Assembly: GCF_014217685.1 (NCBI RefSeq)
Contig: NZ_CP043653.1
Location: 1,492,419 to 1,556,418 of the forward strand
DNA length: 64,000 bases
Direction of reading: 5' to 3'
Origin: Glaciihabitans sp. INWT7
GTDB lineage: Bacteria; Actinomycetota; Actinomycetes; Actinomycetales; Microbacteriaceae
A program made the translations under genes and the position numbers. Within the stretch, counting starts at the first letter, position 1; every line of letters starts with the position of its first letter. This document shows positions 50,292-56,058 of this stretch, one piece after another. The notes below the pieces were generated by a model. The model saw only the letters and a program-made list of their open reading frames with translations, was not told the DNA's origin and searched no databases.

Positions 50292-50731
50292 GCTTTCTCT
50301 CCGACGAGTCCCGGCGTGCCCTCGATTCGCTGGAGACAGCGGCGGAGCCCCTCGATCGTCTTCGCGCGGTGCGGCAGGCGGCTCTCGCGCTCGAGCGGGA
50401 TCCCGCGCAGCTGCAGGCGGTGCGGGACTCTCTCGACTCCGGCGAGACCTGGGACCGGGTGGCGGATGCCGCGGGCCTCGGAGTCGCGGCCGCCAAGTGG
50501 CGCTGGCAGGGCACCGACGAGCAGATCGCCGAGCGACTGGCCGCCGGGCGCAAGCGCTCCGCACGCCCGAGCAGCGTGCCGACGGGACTTGTCGGCGAGT
50601 CCGTGGCCGACGCCGCTCGCCTCCTCGGTGTGACGGCGCAGGCGGTATACCTGCGCATCAGCCGCGGAACCCTCACCGCGACCACCGTGACCCTCGACGA
50701 CGGACGGTCCTATAAGCGGGTGCTGCTGTGA
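50288..50731 (+). CDS. HTH-containing hypothetical protein
   Basis: 147 residues, start overlapping the mycoredoxin stop by 4 bp. Two helix-turn-helix-like parts: DSGETWDRVADAAGLGVAAAKWRWQG at about 55-80 and SVADAARLLGVTAQAVYLRISRGTLTATTV at about 103-135, the latter like a MerR/excisionase-type DNA-binding motif. The N-terminal half is helical (LDRLRAVRQAALALERDPAQL). A role as DNA-binding regulator of the redox/peptidase operon is likely by position. No sensor domain is visible. Ends in a 4-bp overlap with pcp. Confidence 0.65.
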   Translation: MSFLSDESRRALDSLETAAEPLDRLRAVRQAALALERDPAQLQAVRDSLDSGETWDRVADAAGLGVAAAKWRWQGTDEQIAERLAAGRKRSARPSSVPTGLVGESVADAARLLGVTAQAVYLRISRGTLTATTVTLDDGRSYKRVLL

Positions 50732-51378
50732 TGGCACGGGCCCGGACCATCCTCCTCACTGGCTTCGACCCTTTCGACGGCTCAGCGTCGAACAGCGCCG
50801 GTGATGCCGTCGCACTCGTCGCGTCGCGATGGAGCTCGCCGATCCGGTTGGTCACCGCGGTGCTGCCGGTGGCCTTCGCCGCCGCGCCGCGGCAGCTCGA
50901 CCGTCTCATCGCCGATCACCGCCCAGAGCTCGTGATTGCCACCGGCCTCGCCAATGGGCGTGCCGCCATCACCCCGGAGCGACTCGCGATCAACCTGGCG
51001 GACGCCCGGATTCCCGACAACGCCGGTGCTCAGCCGCTCGACGAACCAATAGACGACGGCGGGCCCACGGCATACTTCAGCGGACTGCCGGTGAAGGCGA
51101 TAGTCGCGCGACTTTCCGCCGAGGGGATTCCCGCGGCCCTCTCGCAGACCGCAGGAACTTTCGTCTGCAACGCCGTCATGTACAGCCTGATGCGCACGGT
51201 CGCGGGCACCGACATCCGTGCCGGTTTCATCCACGTGCCGTGCTCGCCAGAACTCGCGGTGGGAACATCGCAGCCGAGTGCGACGATCGAGACCATCGCG
51301 CGGGCGCTGGAACTCGCGATAGAGGTCTGCTTGCAACCGGAGTCCCTCGAACGGATCAGGGGAGGCGCGGAGAGCTGA
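50728..51378 (+). CDS. pcp: Pyroglutamyl-peptidase I
   Basis: 216 residues from GTG 50728 (overlap GTGA with the previous gene); ATG 50731 is the alternative. C15 peptidase landmarks: ILLTGFDPFDGSASNS at the N terminus, Glu 84 in ITPERLAINLADARIPDN, Cys 147 in AGTFVCNAVMYSLM and His 169 in AGFIHVPC, the full catalytic triad. It removes N-terminal pyroglutamate from peptides in the cytoplasm. The 3' end overlaps the convergent NUDIX gene by 23 bp. Third gene of the mycoredoxin operon. Confidence 0.94.
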   Translation: MMARARTILLTGFDPFDGSASNSAGDAVALVASRWSSPIRLVTAVLPVAFAAAPRQLDRLIADHRPELVIATGLANGRAAITPERLAINLADARIPDNAGAQPLDEPIDDGGPTAYFSGLPVKAIVARLSAEGIPAALSQTAGTFVCNAVMYSLMRTVAGTDIRAGFIHVPCSPELAVGTSQPSATIETIARALELAIEVCLQPESLERIRGGAES

Positions 51379-51856
51379 TCCGGAATGCCGGGTGGTCGGA
51401 GGCCGACACGGTACGCAGGTCGGCGCCGAACTCGAAGGTGGCCTTCACGAAACGACCGGCGAGGGCATCGTGCACCCAGAACCGTGCGTCGTCCCACATC
51501 CGCCCGGTCGAGATGTCGGCGACCGGAAACCACTCCGGCACCAGTTCGTCGGACTCCCGGGCATCGCCACGCCACTCCCTGCACACGAACACCCACGACT
51601 GTTGACTCCAGGCCGGCTTGAACGGGAAGGGGTAGGTCAGTTCGCCGACGAGTTCGACTTGGCCGAGTTCGATCGACGTCTCCTCGGCGACCTCTCGCCT
51701 GATCGCCCGCTCGGGAGTCTCCCCCGGTTCGATCTTTCCGCCGGGCCCGACGAGATTGCCCATACCCAGCCCGAATTTCTTGCGGCCGAGCAGCACCTCC
51801 TCGCCCTGTGCTCCCTGTCGAAGCAGATAGCAGACGCAGACCTCCGGCAGTGGCAT
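51356..51856 (-). CDS. NUDIX hydrolase (MTH1-like)
   Basis: 166 residues from the ATG at 51856 (MPLPEVCVCYLLRQ). A complete Nudix box GPGGKIEPGETPERAIRREVAEETSIEL is present at about 40-68, with the REVAEE metal-binding Glu set. Near-N-terminal VCVCYLLRQGAQGEEVLLGRKK and the C-terminal WDDARFWVHDALAGRFVKATF fit 8-oxo-dGTP diphosphatase-like enzymes, which clean oxidised nucleotides. TATGCT (51863-51868, minus strand) lies 6 nt before the ATG: leaderless. The 3' end overlaps pcp by 23 bp. Confidence 0.9.
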   Translation of the reverse strand: MPLPEVCVCYLLRQGAQGEEVLLGRKKFGLGMGNLVGPGGKIEPGETPERAIRREVAEETSIELGQVELVGELTYPFPFKPAWSQQSWVFVCREWRGDARESDELVPEWFPVADISTGRMWDDARFWVHDALAGRFVKATFEFGADLRTVSASDHPAFRISSPRLP

Positions 51857-51986
51857 CCGGCAAGCATAAGCGCCGCGGAAAAGCTGATCACCGGCACCGT
51901 CGCGCGCAGGTGCGGCCAAGACCACGGGAGGGACAGGTTCGAACGCGGAGTAGGCGACCTCAGCAGCGAGCCATTATGGTGAATCC

Positions 51987-52673
51987 GTGACGAAGATGTC
52001 TGTTGTCGATTCCCCGGTGCGCGCCGAAGCTCCTGGCCTGCGTCGAATATTCGGCTTCCTGCGCCTCGCCGTCGGCTTGCTCGTGCTCGCCGCCCTCGTC
52101 ACCCAGGTCACCGCGGACCTGCTCCACGACTCGTTCAAGCCCGGCGAGTACTTCAGCTACTTCACCATCGAGTCCAGCATGATGAACGTCGTGGTGCTGC
52201 TGGTCGGGGGCAGCCTCGCTCTTCGTCTTCCCCGGGACACCGAGCTGTTCACCAGCGTGCGAGTCGCCATCCTCTCTTACGCGGTGATCACCGGACTGGT
52301 CTACAACGTGCTGCTGCGCAACATCCCGGGCGATGGCAGCTACGAACCGCCCCGCTGGTGCAACGAGGTGATGCACGTCTGGGTGCCCATCTTCATCCTG
52401 CTCGACTGGCTGCTGGCCCCGGGGCGCGCACGAGTGCCGTGGAAGCGACTCTGGCTCGTCATCTCCTACCCCCTCGCGTGGCTCGCCTTCACCATGATCC
52501 GAGGCGCGATCACCGGCTGGTATCCCTACCCGTTCCTCGAGCCGGCCGGACCCGGCGGCATCCCGAGCCTCCTCGTCTACGTCGTCGGGATCGCCGCATT
52601 CATTGTGGCGGTGGCGTCGGCCGCCATCGGTTTTGCGCGCCTCACGGCACGGGCCGACCGCGCCGCGCCCTGA
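51987..52673 (+). CDS. Pr6Pr-family membrane protein
   Basis: 228 residues from GTG 51987, which has TATGGT (51975-51980) 6 nt upstream. Six TM helices. Pr6Pr signatures: RIFGFLRLAVGLLVLAALVTQVTADL, EYFSYFTIESSMMNVVVLLVGGSLAL, NEVMHVWVPIFILLDWLLAPGRA and TGWYPYPFLEP. The His and Asp in these motifs are kept in the family. Function unknown. It is paired with a second, more distant Pr6Pr gene on the other side of the amine oxidase. A 47-bp gap separates it from that enzyme, on the same strand. Confidence 0.85.
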   Translation: MTKMSVVDSPVRAEAPGLRRIFGFLRLAVGLLVLAALVTQVTADLLHDSFKPGEYFSYFTIESSMMNVVVLLVGGSLALRLPRDTELFTSVRVAILSYAVITGLVYNVLLRNIPGDGSYEPPRWCNEVMHVWVPIFILLDWLLAPGRARVPWKRLWLVISYPLAWLAFTMIRGAITGWYPYPFLEPAGPGGIPSLLVYVVGIAAFIVAVASAAIGFARLTARADRAAP

Positions 52674-52720: not shown

Positions 52721-54118
52721 ATGTCGTTCAGCCGCCGCAGTTTCCTCCTCGGTGCAGGGTCAGGTCTTTCCCTGCTCGTGGTCACGGCGTGCGTCGAGGA
52801 ATCCCCTCGTCCGACGACCTCCGCGACGCCGTCCCCCACTCCGTCCTCTGCGGTGCCCCGGCCCTCCGGCATCGAACGCAGCGCGTGGTCGACGGATCCC
52901 TTCGCCCGCGGCTCCCAGAGTTTCTTCCCTCCCGGCGCGACCCCGCAGCATCGGGATGATCTGTCCCAGACGGTCGGCGGGCGCGTCTTCTTCGCCGGGG
53001 AGGCCACCTCTGCCGATCGTGCCGGAACGGTGCTCGGGGCACAGCAGTCCGGAGCGAGAGTCGCCTCCGAGGTGCTGGGGATCGTGTCATCCGGCGAGAA
53101 GGTCGCGGTCATCGGTGCCGGCGCCGCCGGAGCCGAGGCCGCTCGTGCGCTCGTGCGACGAGGGGTCGATGTCATCGTGCTCGAAGCGCGGGATCGCGTC
53201 GGCGGGCGCATCGATACCCGCACTCCGAAGTCCTGGCCGCTCAGCGTCGAGCTCGGCGCCTGGCGGCTCGGCGAAGTGGTCGACCAGTCGCTGCTCACAC
53301 GCCTCGCCGCTCTTGGCATCGAGTCGAGCGCGCTCACCGGTCTTCGTGCCCAGGGAAACGAGGCACACACTGCCGACAACACCGTCGGGGGCCCGGCGCT
53401 CGGCACGGCACAGACCTGGGCCGAAGCCCAGCTCCTCGACCCGAGTCTCACCGCGGCACTCGATGGATCCGGTGCCGCGGCGACGGCGGCCGGAACCACG
53501 GTGGAGGGGCTCGCCGGAAGCGATCTGCTCGACACCACACTGGCGACGCTCGCCGGGGTGACGGGAGCGAGCGCCTCGGAGCTGTCCACCTGGTACGGCC
53601 TCGCAGATCTCCCCACTCGCGACCGCATCGTCACCGGCGGGTACTCGGGGGTGATCACCGATGCGCTCGACGGCGTTCGGGTGTCGCTGTCCACGGCCGT
53701 GCTCGGTGTCTCCTACAGCGATTCGTCGGTGAGTCTCAAACTCGGCACCGGCGAGTCCCTCACGGTTGACCGCGTCGTCGTCACGGTGCCGCTCGGAGTG
53801 CTCAAGAAGAATGCGGTGGTCTTCGACCCCCTGCTGCCATTCCCGCATCGATCAGCCATCGCCGCCCTCGGGATGGGCTCGGTGGAGACTGTCTGGTTGC
53901 GCTTCGACAAGCCCTTCTGGTCGACGGATGCGGCGGTCTGGACTCTTGTCGGCACCGAGAGCGACATCACGGACTGGGTCAACCTTCAGGCGATCACCGG
54001 CGAGCCCGTCTTGGTGGGGATCGTGGGAGGCAAGGCGGCTCGTCGAGTGGTGAAGCTCAGCGACGACGACCTTCTCGAATCCGTTCTGGCGTCTCTCGCT
54101 CCGTTCGCTGAGGCCTGA
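52721..54118 (+). CDS. Tat-exported lipoprotein flavin amine oxidase, apparently circularly permuted
   Basis: 465 residues from ATG 52721. N terminus: twin-arginine motif SRRSFLLGAG at 4-13, hydrophobic stretch and lipobox VTAC with Cys 24, then a Ser/Thr/Pro linker. Next come motifs that normally end flavin monoamine oxidases: W-x2-DPFARGSQSFFPPGA (56-72) and RVFFAGEATSADRAGTVLGAQQSGARVA (88-115). Only after these does the FAD Rossmann motif appear: VAVIGAGAAGAEAARALVRRGVDVIVLEARDRVGGR (128-163). The protein stops after DDDLLESVLASLAPF, which is where a normal amine oxidase would continue to the W/DPF segment. So C-terminal FAD-binding motifs seem to have been moved to the front. It should be an extracytoplasmic membrane-anchored oxidase; substrate unknown. 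Both neighbours are Pr6Pr membrane proteins. The stop overlaps the next, convergent gene by 62 bp. Confidence 0.85.
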   Translation: MSFSRRSFLLGAGSGLSLLVVTACVEESPRPTTSATPSPTPSSAVPRPSGIERSAWSTDPFARGSQSFFPPGATPQHRDDLSQTVGGRVFFAGEATSADRAGTVLGAQQSGARVASEVLGIVSSGEKVAVIGAGAAGAEAARALVRRGVDVIVLEARDRVGGRIDTRTPKSWPLSVELGAWRLGEVVDQSLLTRLAALGIESSALTGLRAQGNEAHTADNTVGGPALGTAQTWAEAQLLDPSLTAALDGSGAAATAAGTTVEGLAGSDLLDTTLATLAGVTGASASELSTWYGLADLPTRDRIVTGGYSGVITDALDGVRVSLSTAVLGVSYSDSSVSLKLGTGESLTVDRVVVTVPLGVLKKNAVVFDPLLPFPHRSAIAALGMGSVETVWLRFDKPFWSTDAAVWTLVGTESDITDWVNLQAITGEPVLVGIVGGKAARRVVKLSDDDLLESVLASLAPFAEA

Positions 54119-54830
54119 GCGCCTCACGTGCCTCCCAGCGAGCCGTCCAGCGCTCACCGAGCGGCATGGTGCGACTCACCGCGACGAGCGCGGTCGAGAT
54201 GCCGCCGAACAGCAGCACCGCGATCGAGCCGAAGAAGAAGAATTGTGCGGTGTTGGCCAGCTGGGCCGGGTCGAGGAAGAAGTAGGGGTACCAGCCCACA
54301 ATGGGTCCCCGTGCGAGAGTGACCAGGCCCCAGCCCAACATGAACACGAGCACGATGGCGATACTGCGCCACGGGGCGACGCCTCGCCCGGGGCCGATGA
54401 TCCAGTCGAGAACGGCCACGGCCGGCAGCACGAAATGCAACACCACGTCGGACCAGGGCACGTCGATCCGAAAACCGCGCTCCCCCGACTGCTCGATGAT
54501 CAGGGCGAAGATGATGCCGCACGAGACCGTGCAGCTGAGCACTGTCGCCCGCGCCAGGTCGAGCCATGGCGCATCATCCTGCCCCCGCAGCGCGACGGCC
54601 GCGGCGATGACCGTCACGACGAGGAACAGCATGCTGCTCTGGATGGTGAGGTAGGCGAAGAAGTTGGCTGGCGTGAATGTCGCCGACCCGAGTCCCCAGA
54701 GGAAGCGGGAGACCAGTGCCACAAGGCAGACCACCGCCATTAGCAGCCGGAGGGCGCCGAAGGTCGCCCGTAGCTTCACCGTGCTGTCCACCTCCGCCGC
54801 GGTCCCGGGGAATCCCGGACTCGACCGCAC
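54057..54830 (-). CDS. Pr6Pr-family membrane protein, second copy
   Basis: 257 residues, GTG start with TAGACT 5 nt upstream on its strand. Six TM helices and the same signatures as the copy at 52 kb: ATFGALRLLMAVVCLVALVSRF, NFFAYLTIQSSMLFLVVTVIA, SDVVLHFVLPAVAVLDWIIGPGR and VGWYPYFFLDPAQ. It has longer polar tails at both ends. The last 62 bp overlap the amine oxidase 3' end in the opposite direction. The two Pr6Pr genes on both sides of one exported oxidase make a functional link plausible. Confidence 0.83.
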   Translation of the reverse strand: MRSSPGFPGTAAEVDSTVKLRATFGALRLLMAVVCLVALVSRFLWGLGSATFTPANFFAYLTIQSSMLFLVVTVIAAAVALRGQDDAPWLDLARATVLSCTVSCGIIFALIIEQSGERGFRIDVPWSDVVLHFVLPAVAVLDWIIGPGRGVAPWRSIAIVLVFMLGWGLVTLARGPIVGWYPYFFLDPAQLANTAQFFFFGSIAVLLFGGISTALVAVSRTMPLGERWTARWEAREALRPQRTERETPERIREGRRR

Positions 54831-54921: not shown

Positions 54922-56058
54922 TCAGTCCGCGACCGCCGAGTGCTGCCGTCGTGCACGGATGCTCGCGGCCACTGTCGTCGCCGCGATCGTGAGGAGGGCA
55001 CCGAGCAGCAGTGCGGCATCCTCTCCCGGTTGCAGAAGCCGCAGTTGCGTGCCGAGTGCCGCAGCGGCGATCGGGACCCCGAGTTGCCCCGCAGCCATCA
55101 CGCCGAGCAGCACGGGTTGGGAGATCACCCGGGCGGCGAGATGGCTGAGGATCGCCGCCGCTCCGAGGCACACCCCCAGCAGGATCATGCCGGGATGGCG
55201 GCCGAGATCGGAGAGGCTTATCGATGCGCCGAGCCAGACGAAGAACAGGGGTCCGAAGAATCCCTCGGTGATGCCGAAGAGCTGACGGGCGAGCCGTTGC
55301 GGCTCTCCGATCGCCGCGACCACGAGTCCGAGCAGAAATCCCGCGAGGAGCACCGAGACCTGGGCGAACTGGGCGAGCGCGGCGAGACCGAAGAGCAGAA
55401 GCAGGTTGATGCGCAGCTCGAGCGCGAACTTGCGACGCTCCGAGAGTCGATGCACCCGCTTGCGCAGGCCGTTGCGGTCCAGTGAGCGCAACACGAAGAA
55501 GAGGATCGCCGCCGCGCCGACGACAGCGATCGCACCGATTCCGGTCGTGAGCGCCCGTGCGGGGTCGATCGCCAGGGGAAGGGCGACGATGCAGACGGCA
55601 TCCGCGATCGCTACCTGTGCGACCAGCTGGGTCGTGTCCCCGAGCTTCAGCGAGCCGACGATCGGCAACACCAGCGCGGCGGATGACGAGGCGATCACCA
55701 CCCCGTAGAGGGCGGCGTGCCCCGTTCCGAAGAGGGCGGCGAGCCCGATCCCGGCGAGAGCCGCCACCATCCCGACCAGCGCGGCTCCGAGCGCTCCCCG
55801 GCCGAATGCCCGCCGAATCGTTGCCTCGCGAAGGGGCACATGTGATCCGACGACGAACATGACCAGGGCGAAACCGACGTTGGCGAGCAGTGTGAACGTC
55901 GGCTCCGTCGAGTCGAGCAGACGAAAACCGGATGCCCCGACCAGCAGCCCCCCGAGCAGTTCACCCACCACGCCCGGCAGGTGCCACGACTCCCGCCCCG
56001 CGAGCAGCGGGCCGAGAAGCCCCACGAGCACGATGAGGGCGAGCAGGGTGAAGCTCAT
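54922..56058 (-). CDS. CPA2-family cation:proton antiporter
   Basis: 378 residues, about 11 TM helices: HLPGVVGELLGGLLVGASGF, VGFALVMFVVGSHVPLREA (the family's unwound helix), VIASSSAALVLPIVGSLKLGD and AQVAIADAVCIVALPLAID (acidic ion-site Asp). The C-terminal half contains GPLFFVWLGASISLSDLGRHPGM. It has no RCK/TrkA domain or separate regulatory partner, unlike the pair near 33 kb. Likely Na+ or K+ for proton exchange. TAGCCT (56065-56070 on its strand) lies 6 nt before the ATG: leaderless. Confidence 0.9.
   Translation of the reverse strand: MSFTLLALIVLVGLLGPLLAGRESWHLPGVVGELLGGLLVGASGFRLLDSTEPTFTLLANVGFALVMFVVGSHVPLREATIRRAFGRGALGAALVGMVAALAGIGLAALFGTGHAALYGVVIASSSAALVLPIVGSLKLGDTTQLVAQVAIADAVCIVALPLAIDPARALTTGIGAIAVVGAAAILFFVLRSLDRNGLRKRVHRLSERRKFALELRINLLLLFGLAALAQFAQVSVLLAGFLLGLVVAAIGEPQRLARQLFGITEGFFGPLFFVWLGASISLSDLGRHPGMILLGVCLGAAAILSHLAARVISQPVLLGVMAAGQLGVPIAAAALGTQLRLLQPGEDAALLLGALLTIAATTVAASIRARRQHSAVAD

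Follow-up and report, generated by a model that had tools for sequence, protein, structure and literature searches.

The flavin-containing amine oxidoreductase superfamily (PF01593) includes MAO, PAO and the LSD1 and LSD2 enzymes. In its canonical order the Rossmann motif comes first and the FAGE/GA-SG segment last. A SWIRM domain defines the LSD histone demethylases within this group. The protein described here resembles the superfamily in profile score and predicted fold, while its segments follow each other in permuted order; LSD2, its closest relative of solved structure, has the canonical order in the PDB alignment. No SWIRM domain is found among its 21 Pfam matches (E up to 10).

Some members of the superfamily are exported by bacteria. 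NicA2 and Pnao, which passages of PMC12224317 present as Tat-exported FAO dehydrogenases, share superfamily and Tat signal with the protein studied here. They have an adjacent cytochrome c, while our protein has none among its scanned neighbours, is permuted and carries a lipobox. In the same passages, Tat-exported members that have a cytochrome c gene next to them act as dehydrogenases, and most tested Tat enzymes without this neighbour react fast with O2, with one exception from Erythrobacter. A lysine near flavin N5 aids O2 reactivity there, and the low O2 reactivity of one bacterial member is attributed there to the glutamate that it naturally has at this lysine position (PMC12224317).

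Natural circular permutations, as treated in PMC3320104, feature joined original ends and new ends placed in a loop, like the protein reported here, and "permutation by duplication" is an available model for their origin. The main text of PMC3320104 has no mention of oxidase, flavin or oxidoreductase, and passage searches by enzyme terms found no flavin enzyme in it or in PMC11757225. Permutation is mentioned in the main text of neither PMC12224317 nor PMC7576179. Full-text literature searches, whose coverage left out most subscription journals, gave, among the papers listed and by title or opening of the abstract, no described permuted amine oxidase, in agreement with the preliminary description of this DNA, which knew of none. 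The protein represents a widespread, circularly permuted form of an enzyme superfamily already known, and this form is undescribed within the literature searches made.

The gene lies in the window, the whole stretch of 64,000 nucleotides that was analysed, and its reading frame is uninterrupted from the ATG at 52721 to the TGA at 54118 on the + strand, coding for 465 amino acids. It is organized as follows (basis in brackets):

52721..54118, + strand: circularly permuted FAD-dependent oxidoreductase (PF01593), 465 aa (ORF, Pfam, PDB sequence search, homologues).
52721..52792, + strand: Tat-type lipoprotein signal, residues 1-24, with RR at 5-6 and lipobox-like Cys24 (sequence, alignment).
52793..52849, + strand: Pro/Ser/Thr-rich spacer, residues 25-43, mostly disordered in the predicted model (sequence, AlphaFold2).
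52850..53077, + strand: moved segment, residues 44-119, corresponding to the carboxyl terminus of canonical amine oxidases, with W-x2-DPF-x2-GS, FFAGEAT and the GA-x2-SG helix (Pfam, LSD2 match, sub-profiles).
53078..53095, + strand: new junction, residues 120-125, from the old carboxyl-terminal helix to the old amino-terminal beta strand (LSD2 match, junction lengths, AlphaFold2).
53096..54100, + strand: core, residues 126-460, with Rossmann GAGAAG, GGR loop and substrate-binding part, corresponding to what precedes the moved segment in canonical enzymes (Pfam, LSD2 match, sub-profiles).

The amino terminus features SRRSFLL (Tat-like) followed by VTAC with Cys24 (lipobox-like), and R5, R6 and C24 are invariant in 14/14 aligned sequences, window protein included. 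The moved segment carries W56-x2-D59-P60-F61-x2-G64-S65, FFAGEAT (90-96) and GAQQSG (106-111), ahead of GAGAAG (132-137) and GGR (161-163) in the core. The Rossmann, FAGE and carboxyl-terminal helix motifs are present in one copy each, and an additional GGR triplet at 86-88, inside the moved segment, is not the FAD loop. The clean frame, the Tat motif and lipobox in front of it and the motif positions given in the preliminary description stand, except that the helix motif reads GA-x2-SG and not GA-x3-SG. Its assignment to the flavin amine oxidase superfamily also holds, while the comparison with monoamine oxidases was too narrow, the nearest solved structures being LSD2 and LSD1 both by sequence search and by Foldseek.

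The swapped order proposed there is borne out by two comparisons. A Pfam scan of the protein matches PF01593 in three stretches at 185.6 bits (cut-off 19.8), and along the genome the PF01593 stretches follow each other as C-part, then N-part. LSD2 is the top chain of the PDB sequence search; query residues 126-460 align with it at 337-692 and residues 44-119 at 699-774, each once and with the order swapped. By itself the moved segment matches LSD2 with an i-E of 5.4e-8 when 177,635 distinct chain sequences are searched. The order of segments is the reverse of the canonical one, and the protein is therefore classed as a permuted variant of the PF01593 superfamily rather than as a normal member. 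As expected of a circular permutation, two segments are swapped relative to a homologue without duplication. A second copy of the moved segment is absent, with just 1-24 residues following the core in 87 permuted ORFs (these and 53 canonical ORFs are the 140/146 two-block ORFs that pass score and coverage filters). No ORF with more than two blocks, that is, no duplicated intermediate, is present among 196 classified ORFs of at least 100 aa from the fetched loci. These two observations rule out a duplication remnant and bear out the earlier view of a rearrangement. The Amino_oxidase profile runs about 21 codons beyond the TGA, which was taken as chance, and the moved segment occurs alone in no ORF of at least 100 aa of the loci. 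None among the 25 of 63 NCBIfam matches listed for the protein attained its cut-off, and a plasmid search yielded 11 records, none with 80% of the query covered in one place. It is near certain that the ORF at 52721-54118 carries a genuine circular permutation.

Structure prediction points the same way. The AlphaFold2 model of the window protein, computed from a 25-sequence alignment, has a mean pLDDT of 89.1 and a pTM of 0.85, with pLDDT below 50 in residues 1-41 alone; residues 42-465 are ordered and the moved segment leads directly into the Rossmann strand. Its first elements are E50-53, E66-68, H75-82, E89-91 and H104-121, then E127-131 and H135-146. The model of the canonical relative L067 (14-sequence alignment, pLDDT 85.4, pTM 0.85) starts with E42-49 and H53-64 and ends with E398-403, a two-residue strand at 415-416, H423-430, E437-439 and H452-471. 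The five secondary elements that close L067 have their counterparts in the opening five of the window model, one of them being the two-residue strand in L067, and the predicted secondary structure of the window protein is a rotation of that of its canonical relative. Foldseek, which aligns in chain order, aligns the permuted model to LSD2 with TMq 0.65 over 362 columns at 26% identity, against TMq 0.84 over 443 columns at 33% identity for the canonical control model. The shortfall of about 80 columns fits the 76-residue moved segment, and the divergence (26% versus 33% identity) may contribute to it. The earlier proposal that the FAGEAT segment completes the FAD pocket is supported as far as the ordering of residues 42-465 and the rotated secondary structure go; the models suggest that the moved segment would complete the pocket itself.

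What had been described as a single odd gene belongs to a widespread family. Its full-length, same-order matches in 60 genomes searched, the window's included, are spread over eight more genomes of the genus and five genomes from other genera, at 81% to 40% identity, and were used with the window protein to build the alignment of 14 sequences; canonical-order relatives are separate genes and more distant. Of 398 Microbacteriaceae genomes, 180 match this alignment at E 1e-30 or better and at least 129 have a single collinear match in permuted order, starting in the first 50 positions and reaching past position 250. In at least 116 of these at least 129 genomes the match spans from position 4 or before to position 460 or beyond; genome G392, with an unclear match (82-463), was kept out of the permuted count. 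The homologues of like order whose search the preliminary description had proposed are thus found from 81% to about 40% identity.

Segment order was read with two sub-profiles, which divide the 196 classified ORFs into 89 permuted, 57 canonical and 50 core only. Among the best 80 of 94 relatives, permuted order is found under Microbacteriaceae names in Cryobacterium, Rathayibacter, Leifsonia, Agromyces, Frigoribacterium, Naasia and Microbacterium. Under other names, again among these best 80 of 94, it is found in L055 and L058 (Actinomycetota/Actinomycetes MAGs), L060 (an Okeania MAG), L064 (an alphaproteobacterial MAG) and L071 (Erythrobacter sanguineus). L055 lies inside the Microbacteriaceae clade of the tree and is probably a member of the family under a coarse name. 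The loci L156, L158, L180-L185 and L208-L214 are also permuted. Among 296 genomes searched from the class Actinomycetes, five from other families have the permuted gene, and a further alphaproteobacterial family has it in 4/17 genomes, the query's own included. In the Erythrobacter family 5/199 genomes match, again with the query's own, and one of the matches is canonical. Searches with a single query at E 1e-30 returned 1/292 genomes for the Okeania phylum, which is the query itself, and 2/289 for the Erythrobacter class, one being the query itself; the permuted gene is rare in these two groups beyond Microbacteriaceae.

Three observations concern the distribution of the gene. One Erythrobacter-family genome, G1402, has permuted genes in tandem on the same strand (L183, 1501-2793 and 2797-4023, both on the - strand; also L215), near the genes for phenylalanyl-tRNA synthetase and release factor RF3. 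Genus g96 is mixed, with a canonical relative in G222 and G340 (L201, L202) and the permuted gene in G109, G171, G267 and G369, and is a good place to seek the transition between the two orders. L212, L213 and L214, from small Microbacteriaceae genomes, form a divergent permuted clade with a 3-residue junction.

All 87 permuted ORFs are cut in the same short loop. The junction from the old carboxyl-terminal helix to the Rossmann strand has 3-6 residues in these ORFs, with a median of 6 overall, 3 in L212-L214, 4 in the alphaproteobacterial clade and 5-6 in a third clade; the loop that matches the cut in the 53 canonical ORFs has a median of 4 and a range of -8 to 21, measured by profile ends. 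It is possible, though rather less likely than not, that separate lineages underwent the permutation on their own, each at this same loop. The lengths of the junction, which vary by clade, speak for it. So does a tree of 105 rows (the two-block ORFs left after a 70% identity filter), with four permuted groups that need four order changes, two of them forced by starred branches. A second tree of 64 rows, for which nine long or distant canonical rows were removed and the window's clade was hand-thinned to 18 rows, has three permuted clades that join canonical ones at a node without resolution. Three order changes are needed in it, its backbone is without resolution, and one change suffices in 0/200 bootstrap trees of this set. 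Against several origins, the starred branches of the 64-row tree force just one change, and the AU test does not reject a single clade of all 31 permuted rows (p 0.295; p 0.261 when the long-branched L064 is left out). The identical cut site is also compatible with one origin followed by transfer.

Independently of the number of origins, the window protein is very probably a stable, Tat-exported enzyme of the flavin amine oxidoreductase superfamily, circularly permuted by nature and belonging to its LSD/polyamine-oxidase-like branch, and a lipoprotein in Microbacteriaceae. An RR motif precedes 84/87 permuted ORFs versus 21/53 canonical ones, and a lipobox 70/87 versus 7/53, as counted by regular expressions on up to 75 upstream residues that may take in untranslated sequence. 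Permuted ORFs beyond the window's clade mostly have the RR without the lipobox. L018, L186 and L201, near canonical relatives and among the closest normal-order sequences, bear both RR and lipobox on a signal-bearing amino terminus like that of the window protein, so the parent enzyme was probably exported already before it was re-cut. In these three the order is normal and the anchor would join the Rossmann strand, while in the window protein it would join the moved segment.

The following course of events would account for these features. The ancestor would be a normal-order enzyme, probably Tat-exported, whose old carboxyl terminus became linked to its old amino terminus through 3-6 residues. 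The chain would have been re-opened in the short loop ahead of the W-x2-D segment, with the export signal remaining in front. Knowledge of structure and family together with the Tat signal points to an FAD oxidoreductase folded prior to Tat export: the protein would fold around FAD in the cytoplasm and cross the Tat pore folded, and the re-cut enzyme is probably exported to the cell surface. In Microbacteriaceae Cys24 would be lipidated and the protein anchored on the outer face of the cell membrane. Its substrate, probably an amine, would then be oxidised with O2 or another acceptor. FAD loading, export, lipidation and catalysis of the permuted enzyme are deduced here from its relatives and motifs.

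The oxidase chemistry may differ among permuted enzymes. With an uncertain alignment of the loop concerned, the position near flavin N5 corresponds to K362 and K363 of the window protein. By the same uncertain loop alignment, a lysine at 362/363 is present in 43/71 permuted ORFs of the window's group, in 10/10 of the alphaproteobacterial/Okeania clade, in 0/5 and 0/1 of the other permuted groups and in 16/29 near canonical relatives. The missing lysine in some permuted groups could mean altered or lost oxidase chemistry. An improbable extension of this idea is that the permuted protein is a pseudoenzyme that retains its fold and perhaps FAD, has lost amine oxidation and has a binding or redox-sensing role. 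Lysine is found at neither position in 28/71 members of the window's group and in 6/6 of the two small groups, and the substrate-binding part is variable in the 14 aligned sequences. The window protein itself, however, has both lysines, lysine varies likewise in the near canonical relatives, and the FAD-site motif residues are among the invariant positions of the alignment. The natural glutamate tied to low O2 reactivity in one bacterial member, according to passages of PMC12224317, indicates that a missing lysine need not mean a dead enzyme.

Selection estimates also argue against loss of function. NG86 dN/dS is 0.10-0.12 against three relatives about 81% identical, and 0.29 and 0.34 against two more distant ones, ratios that are rough given a dS of 1.0-1.3 in all five; YN00 gives 0.07 for two relatives. 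Conservation of the moved segment is about that of the remaining protein, and selection on the permuted gene is, judged from these sequence comparisons, purifying.

The permuted enzyme could formally also be a chimera, in which the carboxyl-terminal piece of another amine oxidase paralogue became joined to the front of a truncated one. Such a fusion would produce the identical order, and the single best canonical relative is often not the same for both segments. In 87/87 permuted ORFs the two segments nevertheless have their nearest canonical relatives in one and the same group ("near" or "far", defined from the 105-row tree after it was seen), so one parent was re-cut, and we consider a fusion of paralogues very improbable. 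An assembly error, frameshift or recent pseudogene has practically no likelihood: the frame is open with a dN/dS of about 0.1, the permuted order is shared by orthologues in many independent assemblies from several phyla, and the normal-order relatives, which the preliminary description had considered as a possible sign of a misassembled copy, are separate genes.

The permuted gene is flanked by two genes coding for Pr6Pr-family membrane proteins. The genes around it are:

50728-51378, + strand: pyroglutamyl peptidase.
51356-51925, - strand: NUDIX hydrolase.
51987..52673, + strand: second Pr6Pr-family membrane protein, upstream, with a weak FAR-17a/AIG1 match (NF038065, Pfam).
54057..54830, - strand: Pr6Pr-family membrane protein, convergent, 3' ends overlapping by 62 nt, conserved neighbour (NF038065 match).
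54922-56058, - strand: sodium/hydrogen exchanger.

The two Pr6Pr genes score 102.5 (downstream) and 102.6 bits against the NF038065 cut-off of 30, and the upstream copy reaches 25.6 bits for FAR-17a/AIG1 (cut-off 24.5). The upstream copy has counterparts in some same-genus loci and its linkage is less conserved. A convergent Pr6Pr gene is found within 1.5 kb of the permuted gene in 61/67 Microbacteriaceae genome labels, a count that demands 900 nt downstream and includes a few doubles of name and handle (e.g. L039/G002). It is found in 1/17 other permuted labels, with two double pairs among them (L060/L142, L071/L157), and the one is L055, an Actinomycetota MAG whose gene falls within the Microbacteriaceae clade. 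Canonical labels, with mostly short flanks, give 0/36, and canonical relatives of the L018/L186/L201 type have no Pr6Pr neighbour within their short flanks. L212 and L213 have no Pr6Pr neighbour, and L214 is too short downstream for the count. Pr6Pr is present in 351/398 Microbacteriaceae genomes, and being common there the signal is one of linkage, not of presence. An alignment of 72 Pr6Pr sequences shows a WYPY motif to be conserved along with one Thr and one His; the Thr/His pair is, we presume, reminiscent of AIG1/ADTRP hydrolases. The literature search gave no paper using the name Pr6Pr.

A cytochrome c gene was not found beside the permuted gene in a scan of eight nearby window ORFs. Four CxxCH ORFs occur near eight non-Microbacteriaceae copies (ORFs of at least 100 aa), and the three that were scanned include no cytochrome. 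In G1290 the CxxCH ORF adjoining the permuted gene, a candidate cytochrome c partner, matches ThiF.

A speculative picture, which we regard as unlikely in its entirety, would join these elements. More than one permutation would have occurred at one loop among Tat-exported amine oxidoreductases, since the ends adjoin and the export signal frees the amino terminus. In the window's family the lipid anchor would thereby have left the Rossmann face for the substrate-domain side, with the active-site mouth now facing the membrane, the Pr6Pr (AIG1-like) membrane enzyme as partner and a lipid-soluble substrate.

The gene presents a textbook flavoenzyme fold permuted by nature and maintained by selection across much of a bacterial family. 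It offers a ready experiment on the tolerance of a fold to moved ends and on the export of a cofactor protein, and its cut site indicates where the chain may be opened for engineering. Annotation that matches parts without checking their order will label such genes as ordinary. The linked Pr6Pr gene provides the first functional handle for two uncharacterised families.
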